From Cloacibacillus evryensis DSM 19522 (GTDB taxonomy: Bacteria; Synergistota; Synergistia; Synergistales; Synergistaceae): a stretch of DNA of 64,000 bases. The stretch is taken from positions 2,905,283-2,969,282 of the forward strand of contig NZ_KK073872.1 of NCBI RefSeq assembly GCF_000585335.1, read 5' to 3'. Within the stretch, counting starts at the first letter, position 1. Each line of letters begins with the position of its first letter. This document shows, piece by piece, positions 23,344-52,602 of this stretch. The translations under genes were made by a program, and so were the position numbers. The notes under the pieces are model-generated. The model was not told the origin of the DNA, did not search any database, and saw nothing but the letters and a program-made list of their open reading frames with translations.

Positions 23344-23475
23344 CGGAGAATAAAAGACGAAAGCGGCAAACTTCCGCGATCCCCTTTCCGCAACGGGAGA
23401 CGGCCCCGTTTCCAGGACCGCCCTAACGACCGCCCTCCATAGCCGCCAGGCCGCAGGAGAGGCAGTTTCAGGGAC
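23344..23475 (-). promoter_or_regulatory. Moco/Tuco-like riboswitch aptamer, copy proximal to tupA
   Basis: On the minus strand the core reads CTCTCCTGCGGCC, GGCTATGG, CGTTAGGGCGGTCCTGGAAA, GGGGCCGTCTCCC and GCGGAAAGGGGA. It lines up segment by segment with the upstream copy at 23701-23799. The closing stem is TCTCC with GGGGA. A weak GCGG/CCGC hairpin with TTTCGTCTTTT lies just downstream (about 23350-23370). The Moco RNA motif is known to control Mo/W transporters and cofactor genes; the tungstate transporter next to it fits. The family call is from memory of the motif. Confidence 0.6.
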
Positions 23476-23558
23476 GTATGCAGGCAACATACGCAGAACA
23501 TTCGCGCGATAAAATCCGCGCCGCGGTTATTGTACACTATTTCATGCGTTTATTTCAA

Positions 23559-23684: not shown

Positions 23685-23700
23685 ATAACAGATTCATCAG

Positions 23701-23799
23701 CCGTTCTCCTTTCCAAAGGGAGGCTGCCTCGTTTCCCAGGCAACCCTGTCGGCCTGAAAGCCATAGATCTTTTCCGTAGGCGTACAGGCTCGGAGAACC
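23701..23799 (-). promoter_or_regulatory. Moco/Tuco-like riboswitch aptamer, distal copy
   Basis: The minus strand shows GGTTCTCCGAGCC, CTATGGCTTTCAGGCCGACA, GGGTTGCCTGGGAAACGAGG and CAGCCTCCC, closing with GGAAAGGAGAACGG. The 7-base closing stem GTTCTCC/GGAGAAC and inner stems TGCCT/AGGCA and CCTTT/AAAGG are visible. These pieces match the molybdenum/tungsten cofactor RNA motif as I remember it, and the operon downstream is tupABC. Confidence 0.68.
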
Positions 23800-23908
23800 A
23801 TAATTTATTTTATCATCGGGCTTATGGTACAATAAAGGAGATAAAAAGGCAAGGTCTTCCGTTCGGAATTACTAAAAATTCTTTTGAAACAAAAAAGAGG
23901 CGATGAAG

Positions 23909-45914: not shown

Positions 45915-48683
45915 TCAGAGCAGATCACCGTAATGGCGCACATAAGCTTTTTTCAGACTGGTCGCAAGAACCATATACAGCAGGATGCAAGGGATCAGGT
46001 AGGCGAAGTAGCTTGCCGGCAGCGCTACGAATCCAAGCATCCGGCCAAATTCGGTAAACGGGATCACCGTCAGCAGCGCAATGCCGGAGCAGGTCAGCAG
46101 CGTAAGCGGAGCGGACGCATGGCTCTGAATAAAGGGCAGCTTGGGCGTGCGGATCATGTGAATGACCAGCGTCTGGCTCCACATGGATTCCACGAACCAG
46201 CCGGCCTGGAACATGGCGGCATAGTTCGCCTGCATCTGTACAAGCTCCGCTCCGCTGAAATGATTTGCGAGGTCGTTAAACAGCACGCCGTTGGAGACGA
46301 AGATCGGGCAGAACACAAAATACATGAAGATGTACGTCGTCCAGTCGAAAATGGAGCTGGTCGGCCCGATCCAGATCATGAAGCTGCCCACCGAGGAGGC
46401 GTCCCATTTTCTAGGCACGAGCAGGAACTCCTCATCCACGTTATCCCAGGGGATTGCCGTGCAGGACAAATCGTAAATCAGGTTCAGGAAAATCAGATGC
46501 ACGCTCATCATAGGCAGGAACGGCAGCAGAGCCGCGGCTGCGACGACAGAGAACATGTTGCCAAAGTTGGACGAGGCGGTCATCTTGATGTACTTGATCA
46601 TGTTGGCGTAAGTCTTGCGGCCCTCGAGGATGCCCTCTTCCAGCACCATCAAGTCTTTTTCCAGCAGGATGATGTCCGCGGATTCCTTTGCCACATCCAC
46701 CGCCGTGTCGACTGAGATGCCTATATCGGCGGCTTTCATGGCGGCGGCGTCGTTGATGCCGTCCCCCATATAGCCTACCGTGTGGCCGGCATTGCGCAAA
46801 ACGGCTACTACGCGGGATTTCTGTTCCGGCGTCAGTTTGGCGAACACGTCGGCGGTTTCCGCCGCTTTTGCCAGCTCTTCATCCGTCATGCGGTCGAGGT
46901 CTGCGCCCAGAAGCATGTTTTTCACTTCCAGCCCCACCTGTTTGCAGATGGTGCGGGTGACTTTATGGTTGTCGCCGGTCAGTATTTTTGTATTGACGCC
47001 ATGGTCTTTCAATGCCCTGATGGCGTTCGCGGTCGACTCCTTAGGCGGATCAAGAAAAGCCAGGTAGCCGATCAGCACCATGTCGCACTCATCTTTTACT
47101 CCAAAGGCGCCTGCCGGCGACGGATTGCTCTTTTGGGCCAGGGCGATGACGCGCAGCCCCTTCTCGTTCAGGTCGTCCACTGTTTCCAGGATATTGCCGC
47201 GCAGCTCGTCCGTCAGCGGCTGCGCTGCGCCCCCTACTTCCGCGTAGGCGCAGATGGAGAGCATTTCTTCCACAGCACCCTTGGTAACGATCTGAGTTTT
47301 ACCCGTTTTATCCTGTACCACCGTCGACAGGCGGCGACGGGTAAAATCAAAGGGGATCTCATCCACCTTGACATAATTTTCGGAAAGGTCGAGGAGCTGC
47401 GGGTTTTCTGACTCTTCCTCCTCCGTCTTATGAATGATAGCCATATCCATCAGGTTCTTGTAACCCGTCTGGAAGTAGCTGTTCAAGTAAGCGTGGCGGA
47501 GCACCCGCACATTCTCGTTTCCGCTCACATCCAGGTGGTACTCCAAAACGACCTTATCCTGTGTCAGCGTTCCGGTCTTGTCCGTACATAGGATATTAAT
47601 GGCGCCAAAGTTCTGGATGGAATTCAGGTTTTTTACGATGGTCTTCTTTTTGCTCATGGCAACCGCGCCTTTGGCAAGGCAAGTGGTCACGATCATCGGC
47701 AGCATTTCCGGGGTCAGACCTACAGCAATGGAGATGGCGAAGAGGAACGCCTGCAGCCAGTCGCCTTTGGTAACGCCATTGATAAAGAATACCAGCGGCA
47801 CCATCACCAACATAAAGCGGATCAGTACCCAGGATACCGAGTTCACGCCCTTGGTGAAGCTCGTTTCCACCGCCTCGCCGGCAACGGCGGAGGCCATGGA
47901 ACCAAACAATGTATTATCCCCGGTACAGACGATGACAGCGGTCGCGCTGCCTGAAATCACATTGCTCCCCATGAAAGCGATGTTGCGGTAATCCGTGATG
48001 GAATCCTGCGTCCCGCTGACATTCTGGAGCTTTTCAACCGGCTCGCTTTCGCCGGTCAGAGACGACTGGCTGATGAACAAGTCCTTCGCTTCCATAATGC
48101 GTACGTCTGCGGGGATCATATCGCCCGCGGACAGGTGGACGATATCACCCGCGACAGCGTCGTCCAGCGGGATTTCCTTCTTTGCCTGTCCCTCCCGGTC
48201 AACGGTGCAGGTGGTGGTGATCATGGCCAACAGTTTTTCTGCCGCGTTGCCGCTCCGTGATTCCTGCACGAAGCGCAGTGTGCCGGAAATTATAACCATC
48301 GTAAGGATGATCACAACGGTCAGGCAGTCAAAGTCCTCCGGAGCACTCCCAAACAGGCTCATCATCGGAAGCAGCATATCCGTGATAAAGGACACCAGCG
48401 CCAGGCAGAACAGGATGCCGGTAAAGGGATTGACAAAGGCATCCGTCAGGCGTTTGGCAACTGATTTCCTTTTTTCATGCGTGACCTTGTTGGGGCCGTA
48501 TTTTGCGCGGTTGGAAACAACGCCCGCTTCATCCAGACCGTTCAAACCGGAATTCAAATTCTTCAGCGTCGCTTTGATCGGGTGAGTTGCGGCAAAATGG
48601 ACGCGGCGCTCCTGCTCTTCACGCTGGACGGCCTTCTCTGACATCCTGAGAGCCTGCATCCTGTTATTCATTTTTTCAGTCAT
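45915..48683 (-). CDS. mgtA: Mg2+-importing P-type ATPase, MgtA type (copy 1)
   Basis: A 922-residue P3B-type ATPase importing Mg2+. The phosphorylation site is [20 protein letters not shown], and the other motifs are [34 protein letters not shown] and [20 protein letters not shown]. Ten helices with the Mg2+ family segment [20 protein letters not shown] are present. ATG 48683 has GGAGG 8 bases upstream. An Mg-responsive leader (48759-48803) and a small gene lie upstream. Base composition is less GC-rich than the flanking chromosome. Confidence 0.95.
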
Positions 48684-48711
48684 GCGTCTTACCTCCGTTT
48701 TCTTTTCGTTC

Positions 48712-48798
48712 GGCAAGACACAATTAAATCAAAACACATGGAATCCATCTGTTCGTTGTTATGTGCCTTGCCCTGATAATCGAGTACCGCCGTCAGGG
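48712..48798 (-). promoter_or_regulatory. mgtA leader hairpins
   Basis: On the minus strand GGCAAGGCACA (48772-48762) pairs with TGTGTCTTGCC (48722-48712), 11 bases with one G-U. A second stem CCCTGA/TCAGGG (48798-48793, 48776-48771) lies inside the leader ORF. The two stems share two bases, so they compete, and the first overlaps the end of the leader ORF. Confidence 0.55.
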
Positions 48799-48803
48799 TC
48801 CAT
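48759..48803 (-). CDS. Candidate Mg2+-sensing leader peptide MDPD
   Basis: A 14-codon ORF, MDPDGGTRLSGQGT, starting at 48803 with AGGTG 7 bases upstream and ending 76 bases before mgtA. An acidic/Pro start like MEPDP in MgtL destabilises ribosomes at low Mg2+ in enteric mgtA leaders (established there). The same logic here is inference from position and the MDPD start. Confidence 0.55.
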   Translation of the reverse strand: MDPDGGTRLSGQGT

Positions 48804-48875
48804 CTGTTTCACCTCACTTTGTAACAAGCGAATGCAAAGGCTAAGATCGCGCCCCGATCGCCAAATGTTTTAAGT

Positions 48876-49121
48876 TCATTTCTCCGACTCCAATCTTTTT
48901 TTAAACAGCCCGAGCTCTTCGTTCGCCTTCAATATCCGCCTTTTTTTCTGAAAGAGAATCGCGATATTGAGAACCAATAGCAAAATGGCGAGGATATTGG
49001 ATATTTGCCATATGCAGAATACAATGCGCCGGTGACCCGCCATTACAAGGAATATGACAAACAATGCCGCCGACCAGATTTCATATATTCTCACGGCTGC
49101 TCCAAACCATTTGTTTTTCAT
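48876..49121 (-). CDS. Small two-helix membrane protein of the Mg locus
   Basis: An 81-residue protein with two helices (RIYEIWSAALFVIFLVMAGH and FCIWQISNILAILLLVLNIA) and a basic tail. A GGAGGG site lies before ATG 49121. It lies between the response regulator and the first mgtA gene, inside the same minus-strand run. No family recognised. Confidence 0.72.
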   Translation of the reverse strand: MKNKWFGAAVRIYEIWSAALFVIFLVMAGHRRIVFCIWQISNILAILLLVLNIAILFQKKRRILKANEELGLFKKRLESEK

Positions 49122-49145
49122 AGGTCCCTCCTTATAAAATTTCCC

Positions 49146-49169
49146 ACCCGGCCGAAACGTCCGCCGGGT
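49146..49169 (-). other. Hairpin before the 81-residue membrane protein
   Basis: ACCCGGC pairs with GCCGGGT (49169-49163, 49152-49146 on the minus strand) around a 10-base loop, 25 bases before the ATG. It lies after a short leader ORF, so it may be an attenuator or a translation control. Confidence 0.4.
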
Positions 49170-49185
49170 TTTCGAAAAATCCTCC

Positions 49186-49269
49186 TTACGATCGCTTCCA
49201 GGGCGGCGGCCTTTGATTTACCGAAGGAAATGTACTCCGCAAGGATCTCGACTTTTTCGCCCCTCTCAT
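49186..49269 (-). CDS. Candidate Pro-rich leader ORF
   Basis: A 27-codon frame MRGAKKSRSLRSTFPSVNQR followed by PPPWKRS, starting 14 bases after a TATAAT (49288-49283). PPP runs stall ribosomes, and Pro-coding leaders regulate mgtCB in enterics. The ribosome site is poor; an ATG at 49284 would give 32 codons. A second open frame without a normal start reads through to overlap the next ATG at 49121. Support is weak. Confidence 0.35.
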   Translation of the reverse strand: MRGAKKSRSLRSTFPSVNQRPPPWKRS

Positions 49270-49320
49270 AAATTCTTTGGGCATTATAAAAAAATCGCAG
49301 GAGAACTCACATGGTCAAAG

Positions 49321-49342
49321 CCTTGCGATTTCCTTGCGATTT
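49321..49342 (-). promoter_or_regulatory. Two 11-base direct repeats, OmpR/PhoB-type site
   Basis: CCTTGCGATTT occurs twice in perfect tandem (plus-strand reading), the spacing of a PhoB/OmpR dimer site. It lies upstream of a TATAAT with poor -35 (49306-49311), as expected for an activated promoter. The OmpR-like regulator gene is directly upstream. Confidence 0.6.
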
Positions 49343-49416: not shown

Positions 49417-49920
49417 CTATAGGTTGTCGTTGAATTTATAGCCGATACCCCAAATGGTCAGGATATATTCCGGCGCGTCCGGATTTGGCTCGATCTTTTT
49501 TCGCAGCTTTCGTATAAAAGCCATAATGTTGCTGTCCGCCAACAAGAAATCCTCGCCCCAAACAGAACGGTAGATCTGCTCCTTTGTAAAGACCTCGCCT
49601 CTATTTTGAATCAGAAAGTATAAAATATCAAATTCCTTCGGGGTCAGGTTTACTTCAACTCCCCGAAACATCACCTTTCGGTTTTTAGGCCGTACGGAAA
49701 GCTCTCCAACGCAAATTCCGTCATCTGCGGTACCGGGAAAAGAACCCATTCCATCCTGTGCGCCCAGCATCAAGGTCGAAACTTCTCCGGTCATAAGCTC
49801 ATGAAGACCTGTCATCAGCTCATCGACACAGGCGGTTTCAGGCGGCTCACGCTTCAGCTTGTCATAGAGCCACTTTGAAAGGATGGAATCCATAGGGATA
49901 AAGCTTATATTTTTTTTCAA
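49417..49920 (-). CDS. OmpR/PhoB-type winged-helix regulator without normal receiver
   Basis: A 167-residue protein. The C-terminal winged helix is complete (VNLTPKEFDILYFLIQNRGE, then EVFTKEQIYRSVWGEDFLLA, SNIMAFIRKLRKKIEP and the Gly-Tyr wing). The first ~70 residues are too short for a receiver domain and contain no DD...D...K pattern. It starts at TTG with GGAGG 8 bases upstream, 18 bases after the mgtA-2 stop. It may act without phosphorylation. Role in regulating the magnesium genes is inferred. Confidence 0.85.
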   Translation of the reverse strand: MKKNISFIPMDSILSKWLYDKLKREPPETACVDELMTGLHELMTGEVSTLMLGAQDGMGSFPGTADDGICVGELSVRPKNRKVMFRGVEVNLTPKEFDILYFLIQNRGEVFTKEQIYRSVWGEDFLLADSNIMAFIRKLRKKIEPNPDAPEYILTIWGIGYKFNDNL

Positions 49921-49938: not shown

Positions 49939-52602
49939 TCAAATCAATTCATGGTATCGTTTTTGGTATAAGCGCTTGGCAATGGTCGTTGAAAGCATAT
50001 AGAGCGATACCGTCAGCAGCAAAAAGCCAAAATACCGCAGCGGCAGCCGGGTCAGTCCCAGCACCGCTGCAAACGGCGTCACTGTCAGGAGGGTAAAGAC
50101 AACGATTCCCGCCAACGTGATAAACGAGACCGGGCAGGACGCCCTGCTTTGCAGAAAGGCGACCTTTTTTGTGCGTAATAAATGTAAAATCAACACCTGC
50201 GTCCACATGGACTCTAAAAACCAGCCCGTCTGAAATATCGCAACATATTTTAAGCGCAGCATCGGGTCGGTCAACTGTGTATAGGTCAATCCGCCGCACA
50301 GGGCGGGACAGAGGACAAAATACAAGAATAAAAATGTCAGAATATCAAACACGGAACTGATCGGGCCAAAGACACACATGAAGCGCGCCAGCGTTTTTCC
50401 GGACCACGCACGGGGCGTGACAGTGTCCTCTTCATCCACGCTATCCCACGGTAAAACAATACACAGGGCGTCATAGAGCAGATTCAAAAGTAAAAGCTGG
50501 ACAGCCGTCATCGGCAGGAACGGCAGCACCGCGCTGGCGCAGACGATAGACAGAATGTTGCCGAAATTGGAGCTTGCCGTGATCTTGATATATTTAAGCA
50601 TATTGGCAAAGGTCCTGCGCCCTTCCAATATCCCCTGCTCCAGCACGGTCAGGTCTTTTTGGAGCAAAACGACGTCGGCGATATCTTTTGCCGCATCCAC
50701 GGCGGTATCCACCGAGATGCCGACATCCGCCTCGCTTAGTGCGGGGATGTCGTTCATGCCGTCCCCCAAAAAGCCTACGGTATGCCTGTTTTCCCGCAAC
50801 GCGCCCAATATACGGACCTTTTGCCCCGGGGTCAGCTCCGCGAATACATCCGCCTGTTCCACGGCCGAGCGAAGTTGTTCGTCCGGGAGTTGATTTATTT
50901 CCGCCCCCGTCAGGACCAGATCCACAGAAATTCCGACCCGGCGACAGACCGACACCGCGATTTCCGACCGGTCGCCGGTCAAAATTTTAGGCCGCACCTG
51001 CAACTTTTTGAGTGCCTGGATAGATCCCGCGGCAGATTTTTTAGGCGCGTCAAAAAAGGCCAGATAGCCTGTCAGGATCAAGTCCCTCTCGTCCGCCAAA
51101 GCAATAGTATCCTGCGCCCCCAAGCTTTTGTGCGCGACGGCAATGACCTTCATGCCGTCTTCCAGCATCTCATCCACAACGGAGGCCACGTTATCGAATC
51201 CCCCGTTCCCGACAGGCAGCAGCTCTCCATCGTACTCAACAAAACCGCAGCGGGAGAATACCTGCCGGATGTCGCCTTTGACAATCAGTTCGTGCCCGCC
51301 GTCCGCATCAGCAACTAATGTACTGACAAATTTGCGGTTATAGTCAAACGGTATCTCATCCGCTTTTTGATAACGCTTCACCAACGCCGCATAGAAAGAC
51401 TCTTGTTTCGGCATAGTGCGGCATACCAAGATCGCATTGTCGATAGGGTTGCGGACGCCTGAGTGATAAAAGCTGTTTAAATAGGCAAGATGCAAAGCTT
51501 CTGAATTTTCATTCCCAAGAACGTCCATATAGTATTCCAACAAAATATTTTCGTTGGTCAGTGTGCCGGTCTTGTCCATACAAAGCACATCCATGCTGCC
51601 AAAGACCTGCATAGCGTCTATGTTTTTCACGATCGTCCGCTTTTTCGACAGCGAGAGGCTGCCTTTTGCAAGGCAGGCCGTAACGACCATAGGGAGCATT
51701 TCCGGGGTCAGTCCGACCGCCACGGAGAGAGCAAAGACGAAGGACGCCACCCAACTGCCCTTGGTGATGCCGGACACCAGAAACACCACCGGCACAAGGA
51801 CCGCCATAAAACGAAGCATGACCCACGCGATCGAGTTGGCGCCGTTTTGAAATGCCGAAACGCCGTCGGAATCAGGGCGGATAAAATTCCCATACAGCGT
51901 ATCTTTTCCGACGGCCAGAACCACACCTTCGCCCTTTCCGCTGATAACCGAGGTCGCCATAAAAGCAAGGTTATCAAGCTGCGTCAGCGGGGTCAGCTCC
52001 GAATAGCGGTTGGCGCGGCTGCTTTTTTCGAGAATCGCGCTTTCTCCTGTGACGGCGGCCTGTGATACGAATAAATCTTGTGTCCTGATCAGCCTCAAAT
52101 CAGCAGGAATCCGGTCGCCCGCTGAAAGAAACACCAAATCGCCTACCACGAGCTTTTCAGCCGGCACGTCCGCCAACACTCCGCCCCGCTTGACGGTAAC
52201 ATTAGCGTGAATCAGGCGTTCCAGCCGGTCGGAAGCGTTTTTAGCCCGCAGTTCCTGCATCAGCCGGATCGCGCCGCTGATCAGGATCATGACGCAGATA
52301 ATCACGACGGTCGTGATATTTCTGCTGAAATTGGAAACAAGCAAGACGTCGGTAATAAAAGAGATGACCGCCAGCACAAACAGAATCATGGTAAACGGAT
52401 TTATAAACGCGCGGCGAAGACGGTACCACAGCGTATCGTTCCTTCTGCCGGTCAGTCGATTTTCTCCATATTTATCGCGCATGGCTTCTATCTGCCCTAA
52501 CGGCAGTCCATTTGGCGTGGTGGGAATGTCCTGATAAATTTCCTGTGCGTCACGATAGGCGTACTTTTTCATACGGCTGTTCAGCAACGTTGATTTTGGC
52601 AA
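49939..52602 (-). CDS. mgtA: Mg2+-importing P-type ATPase, MgtA type (copy 2)
   Basis: An 887-residue P3B ATPase. It contains the phosphorylation site VLCMDKTGTLTNENILLEYY, AAVTGESAILEKSS, FDYNRKFVSTLV, KILTGDRSEIAVS and VGFLGDGMNDIPALSEADVG. It is a distant paralogue of copy 1; the two probably differ in regulation or affinity. It starts at TTG with GGAGG 7 bases upstream. A promoter with TAGAAT lies near 52640. First gene of the minus-strand locus. Confidence 0.95.
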   Translation of the reverse strand: MPKSTLLNSRMKKYAYRDAQEIYQDIPTTPNGLPLGQIEAMRDKYGENRLTGRRNDTLWYRLRRAFINPFTMILFVLAVISFITDVLLVSNFSRNITTVVIICVMILISGAIRLMQELRAKNASDRLERLIHANVTVKRGGVLADVPAEKLVVGDLVFLSAGDRIPADLRLIRTQDLFVSQAAVTGESAILEKSSRANRYSELTPLTQLDNLAFMATSVISGKGEGVVLAVGKDTLYGNFIRPDSDGVSAFQNGANSIAWVMLRFMAVLVPVVFLVSGITKGSWVASFVFALSVAVGLTPEMLPMVVTACLAKGSLSLSKKRTIVKNIDAMQVFGSMDVLCMDKTGTLTNENILLEYYMDVLGNENSEALHLAYLNSFYHSGVRNPIDNAILVCRTMPKQESFYAALVKRYQKADEIPFDYNRKFVSTLVADADGGHELIVKGDIRQVFSRCGFVEYDGELLPVGNGGFDNVASVVDEMLEDGMKVIAVAHKSLGAQDTIALADERDLILTGYLAFFDAPKKSAAGSIQALKKLQVRPKILTGDRSEIAVSVCRRVGISVDLVLTGAEINQLPDEQLRSAVEQADVFAELTPGQKVRILGALRENRHTVGFLGDGMNDIPALSEADVGISVDTAVDAAKDIADVVLLQKDLTVLEQGILEGRRTFANMLKYIKITASSNFGNILSIVCASAVLPFLPMTAVQLLLLNLLYDALCIVLPWDSVDEEDTVTPRAWSGKTLARFMCVFGPISSVFDILTFLFLYFVLCPALCGGLTYTQLTDPMLRLKYVAIFQTGWFLESMWTQVLILHLLRTKKVAFLQSRASCPVSFITLAGIVVFTLLTVTPFAAVLGLTRLPLRYFGFLLLTVSLYMLSTTIAKRLYQKRYHELI

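Follow-up and report, generated by a model that had tools for sequence, protein, structure and literature searches.

An acidic leader peptide with predicted, mutually exclusive RNA helices upstream of mgtA in Cloacibacillus evryensis: a probable ribosome-based magnesium switch

We analyzed a 64,000-nucleotide stretch of the Cloacibacillus evryensis DSM 19522 genome (hereafter, the window). The product of mgtA copy 1 scored 1130 bits against TIGR01524 (cut-off of 611) and 1175 bits against NF011702 (cut-off of 975), and by these profile matches it is a true Mg2+ P-type ATPase. A second TIGR01524 gene (mgtA copy 2) lies upstream of copy 1 at 49939-52602, and a gene for an orphan OmpR-type winged-helix regulator is situated between the two copies, upstream of copy 1. 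This regulator is likely an activator. A promoter/operator element, GCAAGAAAATCGCAAGGTTTTGACCATGTGATTTTTCTTGCGATTTTTTTATACT, contains CGCAAGG repeats spaced 11 bp plus an inverted copy, and it was found ahead of mgtA or the leader in 38 of 79 related loci; it is probably the binding site of the orphan regulator. Short proteins related to the regulator and ending in ILTIWGIGYKFND were also observed upstream of mgtA in many Clostridia. The region 48880-49250 (minus strand) contains a small membrane-protein-like ORF and, apparently, the frameshifted remnant of an ~65-residue ORF ending in GWEIL that is intact ahead of mgtA in clostridial loci such as L058 and L099. Elsewhere in the window, a tandem pair of molybdenum-cofactor riboswitches (RF01055) was detected at 23365-23485 and 23690-23807, both on the minus strand.

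Table 1. Positions of the features described in the text, in window coordinates except for the M-box rows, which are given by locus.
Feature	Position	Strand	Remarks
mgtA copy 1, magnesium-translocating P-type ATPase	45915..48683	minus	TIGR01524, NF011702
Arm 4, GGUAAGACGC	48684..48693	minus	SD sequestor; predicted to pair with arm 3
Arm 3, UGUGUCUUGCC	48712..48722	minus	Predicted partner of arm 2 or arm 4
Start helix P1, 3' arm, UCCAUGUGUUU	48732..48742	minus	
Leader ORF, MDPDGGTRLSGQGT, 14 codons + TAA	48759..48803	minus	Acidic start kept in relatives
Arm 2, GGCAAGGCACA, codons 11-14	48762..48772	minus	Anti-sequestor; predicted to pair with arm 3
Arm 1, CCCUGA, codons 2-4	48793..48798	minus	Predicted to pair with UCAGGG 48776-48771 (codons 10-11)
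Start helix P1, 5' arm, AAACAGAUGGA	48799..48809	minus	Leader start region
Leader Shine-Dalgarno (SD), GAGGTG	48810..48815	minus	Conserved in alignment A2
mgtA-locus promoter/operator, CGCAAGG-N4-CGCAAGG ... TATAAT	49283..49338	minus	Conserved; putative function
Orphan OmpR-type winged-helix regulator without receiver domain	49417..49920	minus	PF00486 only, 93 bits
M-box riboswitch	L118 984-1141		
M-box riboswitch	L119 1045-1200		
M-box riboswitch	L120 1051-1203		
M-box riboswitch	L150 985-1143		
M-box riboswitch	L181 4498-4659	minus	

The first-pass annotation had described a 14-codon ORF with a ribosome site ahead of mgtA copy 1, together with two stems, one inside the ORF and one overlapping its end. 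The ORF and both stems were indeed present in the sequence; the annotation located them correctly but left the strand unstated, and all of the elements lie on the minus strand. The ORF is separated from the mgtA ATG (48683) by 75 nt, and GAGGTG is placed 6 bases 5' of its own ATG. The codons following the ATG at 48803 are GAC CCT GAC GGC GGT ACT CGA TTA TCA GGG CAA GGC ACA TAA (48759), and the peptide starts with Met-Asp-Pro-Asp (MDPD). The locus thus presents an SD-preceded short ORF immediately 5' of a Mg2+ P-type ATPase gene, in which codons 2 and 4/5 encode acidic residues conserved at the peptide level.

Two further helices, absent from the first-pass annotation, were recognized, namely a hairpin over the mgtA SD and a start helix (P1), which would close off the start of the leader and whose arms lie ~60 nt apart. 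The SD hairpin (3:4) comprises 10 bases (48721-48712/48693-48684), and its arm 4 overlaps the mgtA SD (GGAGG, 48696-48692). The 5' arm of this hairpin, arm 3, has a competing partner in arm 2 from the last codons of the ORF, with which it can form the 2:3 helix of 11 pairs, including one G-U (48772-48762/48722-48712). The predicted energies of the two duplexes are nearly equal (-20.0 kcal/mol for 2:3 and -19.8 kcal/mol for 3:4), and arm 3 contains a block, CUUGCCUC, that is conserved in alignment A2. According to the predicted pairing, mutually exclusive helices would tie the leader to gene expression, with the SD of the transporter gene covered by the 3:4 hairpin as in the MgtQ subtype.

A scan for MgtA in 85,000 genomes yielded 80 loci, mostly from Clostridia. 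Identity with the window protein reached 87%, for a homologue from Lachnospiraceae, and this identity with mostly clostridial proteins indicates that the gene moved horizontally. Together with the window, L004 and L005, 78 of the scan loci provided 81 usable upstream regions. An SD-preceded leader with an acidic or clearly related start was found in 44 of them, usually 90 to 140 nt ahead of mgtA and mostly with the pattern M-[DE]-x-[DE]-G-S-P. Leader starts include MDSDGSPRR, MDPDGSPRR, MDADGSPR and MESDGSP, and further ones are MDYDGHSE, METDAKPK, MDPDGKRK and MDPDDGLW, among others; many of these ORFs are longer than the 14 codons in the window. A relative from the same genus carries the leader MEPDSFAG 328 nt before the gene, and another member of the same family carries MDVDSSGI. 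Among the SD-preceded short ORFs of the clostridial loci, the M[DE]x[DE] start was found in 27 of the 47 located ahead of mgtA, compared with 3 of the 523 at other positions (Fisher 3e-30, which is not a true probability because the rows are related).

The variation within the leaders was codon-phased. In codons 2 to 7, the entropies at positions 1, 2 and 3 were 0.90, 0.69 and 1.48, respectively, the third being about twice the first and second, and GAC/GAT and CCN were exchanged freely within the conserved start. In codons 10 to 15, the corresponding values were 1.79, 1.74 and 1.72, and no periodicity was observed from codon 10 onward. The third-position variability in the early codons and its absence from codon 10 indicate that the start is selected as a peptide and not as RNA. 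The first ~9 codons are conserved at the peptide level and the rest of the leader is not; the acidic start is kept across genera and phyla, while the sequences of the tail and of the hairpins drift.

The remaining 37 of the 81 upstream regions showed no recognizable leader, among them those of the closest homologue (Hespellia, 87%) and of the same-family genome G002 (78%). Scanning the leaderless loci to 2.5 kb upstream revealed no distant leader, and mgtA in these loci often directly follows the conserved CGCAAGG-repeat promoter. The absence from 37 regions, Hespellia included, shows that mgtA can do without the leader or that the leader is readily lost. The mgtA paralogue (copy 2) had no such leader in the window, L116, L117, L192, L194 and L195.

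RNAalifold with a 30-row MAFFT alignment gave no consensus structure, and the named helices and single-sequence pairing were therefore tested instead. In the window, the whole-leader fold had a z score of -2.9 (1 of 200 shuffles was as good), and the p values against shuffles were 0.005 for 3:4, 0.025 for 2:3 and 0.015 for the start helix. Over 41 loci, with 200 dinucleotide shuffles per locus, the mean z scores were -2.08 for 2:3, -1.98 for the start helix and -1.10 for 3:4, and p was 0.05 or less in 21 of the 41 loci for 2:3 and likewise in 21 for the start helix. Pairing of the start helix and of 2:3 is thus in excess. In L062, the leader MDSDGNLISIWQASKENSSICFL, located 115 nt before mgtA, contains an ~21-bp perfect hairpin within its 3' half, and 2:3-type pairing there has a z score of -8.3.

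Strong covariation was observed for the start helix only, with 22 double-changed cells versus 12.7 in shuffles (1/500); 77% of its alignment cells were paired versus 44% or less when the arms were slid. The SD hairpin was paired in 86% of cells versus 37 to 64% when slid, and it showed no double changes in the alignment because its SD side is fixed and cannot vary. Covariation of 2:3 in a fixed register was weakly above shuffles (34 to 51 of 500), and its register shifts from locus to locus. In a pseudoknot-free model, 36 of 41 loci had a greater predicted SD opening when the ribosome occupied codon 4-5 rather than codon 10 (p = 4e-6), the window values being 0.65 and 0.40, respectively. Compared with no ribosome, an early ribosome did not give higher predicted SD opening across the family (22/41, p = 0.26).

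The closest worked-out match is the translational mgtQ-mgtB switch of Salmonella, which is a better model than the Rho-dependent mgtL-mgtA. In mgtQ-mgtB, 3:4 hides the transporter SD and 2:3 frees it, a logic established by mutation of Asp2/Glu5 and of arms 1 to 4; Asp2/Glu5 are required because they cause early exit of the ribosome from the ORF (PMC8092293). The two systems share a short ORF in which acidic residues stand at and near codon 2 (PMC8092293), as well as the competition of 1:2 and 3:4 with 2:3, where 3:4 lies over the SD of a Mg2+ P-type ATPase gene. However, mgtQ has 8 codons and lies between mgtC and mgtB, whereas the window ORF has 14 codons of different sequence and an added start helix, and leaders of its kind precede mgtA in Synergistota, Bacillota and others. 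The acidic codons of mgtQ are needed for expression (PMC8092293), and those of the window leader would play the same part.

Given the mgtQ-mgtB arrangement and the drop-off of MgtL at EPDP, we read the window element as a low-Mg2+ switch for mgtA, and we consider it probable that it is an MgtL/MgtQ-type ribosome-based magnesium sensor acting by translation attenuation. As long as the leader is free of ribosomes, 3:4 would hide the mgtA SD, next to the start helix and/or 1:2, and keep the gene off. In ample Mg2+, a translating ribosome would pass the acidic start into arm 2 and block its pairing with arm 3, so that 3:4 forms and the gene is again off. At low Mg2+, the nascent M-D-P-D would destabilize the ribosome and lead to early drop-off; initiating ribosomes would then hold arm 1 open, 2:3 would pair, and the freed SD would turn mgtA on. 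We infer from the analogy that the leader turns on mgtA translation at low Mg2+, and the same reasoning covers leader translation, drop-off, Mg2+ as the signal and the direction of control. bL31, a factor countering drop-off, is present.

A classical attenuator, based on stalling in response to EF-P activity or to the supply of amino acids or charged tRNAs (Pro, Asp, Ser, Arg) and not on Mg2+-dependent drop-off, seems unlikely. Codon 7 often encodes proline, and a response of enteric mgtL to proline/EF-P has been described (PMC6460261), but the conserved residues are D/E at codons 2 and 4, proline is variable, no run of a single codon exists, and the gene encodes a Mg2+ importer. Similarly unlikely is control at the level of transcription, in which the leader would govern a Rho-dependent terminator and the SD hairpin would be secondary. 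The peptide start is the same as that of MgtL, which shows drop-off at EPDP at low Mg2+ and acts through Rho (PMC11282234); however, the predicted sequestor is in register with the mgtA SD, and no intrinsic-terminator-like U run follows the stems in the sequence. Both leaders precede mgtA and have an acidic-Pro start (MEPDP in MgtL; PMC11282234, PMC6460261), but MgtL controls a Rho-dependent terminator whereas the window hairpin covers the mgtA SD.

Quite unlikely, too, is a structured RNA, such as a riboswitch-like sensor of Mg2+ or another signal, in which the ORF would be incidental and its first codons an RNA motif. The pairing of the start region with a downstream element, its covariation and the whole-leader z score are consistent with such an RNA. 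In contrast, the codon-phased variation with GAC/GAT and CCN exchange, the conserved SD and ATG, and the acidic starts of distant leaders despite no sequence similarity argue against it. In addition, an Rfam search found no family within the window leader, the enteric mgtA leader RNA family included, and at a permissive threshold only sub-threshold matches were obtained, all outside the leader. The M-box (ykoK, RF00380) also controls Mg2+ transporter genes, but it is an RNA aptamer as opposed to a peptide leader, and its covariance model had no match in the window or the whole genome. Short ORFs are common and some relatives lack the leader, but a chance acidic start with fortuitous stems is highly improbable given the enrichment statistics, and the conservation in different genera and phyla refutes it.

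The distribution of acidic-start leaders extends beyond the close homologues. Leaders with D/E at codons 2 to 4 were found in Desulfovibrionia (MEPDSRHGPRSDAPPRRR, MSSDSPDF, MDHPPSS), Coriobacteriia (MDDCSRSR, MSDDHSHQ, MEGSPSRK, MSEGSSHS) and Negativicutes (MESDTSGE, MDSASGSG, MDGASGGS), and class surveys found them in more diverged Clostridia as well. In the distant classes, such residues with an S/P/G-rich start were present in 27 of the 31 ORFs that follow an SD and precede mgtA, compared with 15 of 156 controls (p = 8e-18, the rows being related). The acidic start ahead of mgtA is thus conserved in at least four bacterial phyla, and distant leaders keep it in spite of lacking sequence similarity. 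In five distant loci, an M-box, an acidic-start leader and mgtA were arranged in tandem; an M-box directly upstream supports Mg2+ control of such genes.

With this conservation, the main idea of the first-pass annotation, that mgtA is preceded by an acidic/Pro leader resembling MgtL and by hairpins that compete, withstands the refutation test proposed with it. Its further proposal of convergence is unsupported, because almost every branch of the MgtA tree carries leaders, the one with E. coli MgtL among them. The tree showed 10 changes of leader state and a paralogue clade without leaders, and the Desulfovibrionia leader MEPDS...PRRR closely resembles E. coli MgtL (sequence read from K-12). 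Descent of the leader together with the gene, horizontal transfer included, is at least as likely as convergence; homology of a few leader residues cannot be proven. Tentatively, the acidic ribosome-destabilizing leader could be an ancient companion of mgtA that arose before Pseudomonadota, Desulfobacterota, Bacillota, Synergistota and Coriobacteriia diverged. The ribosome would then serve many bacteria as a Mg2+ sensor, at some loci arranged in tandem with the M-box; we regard this as a serious possibility short of a probable one.

Intrinsic ribosome destabilization as a regulatory input has been described for two enteric leaders in the open-access literature that we searched. In those papers we found no description of a leader of this kind outside enterics; earlier reports may exist. 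The many natural leader variants provide a means to learn which nascent residues destabilize ribosomes, and the loci with a tandem M-box and leader offer a way to ask why one gene needs two Mg2+ sensors. Sensing of magnesium by the ribosome itself, so far documented in E. coli and similar gut bacteria, probably extends well beyond them, and an acidic mgtA leader in at least four phyla, including strict gut anaerobes, would, if true, make it a general regulatory principle.
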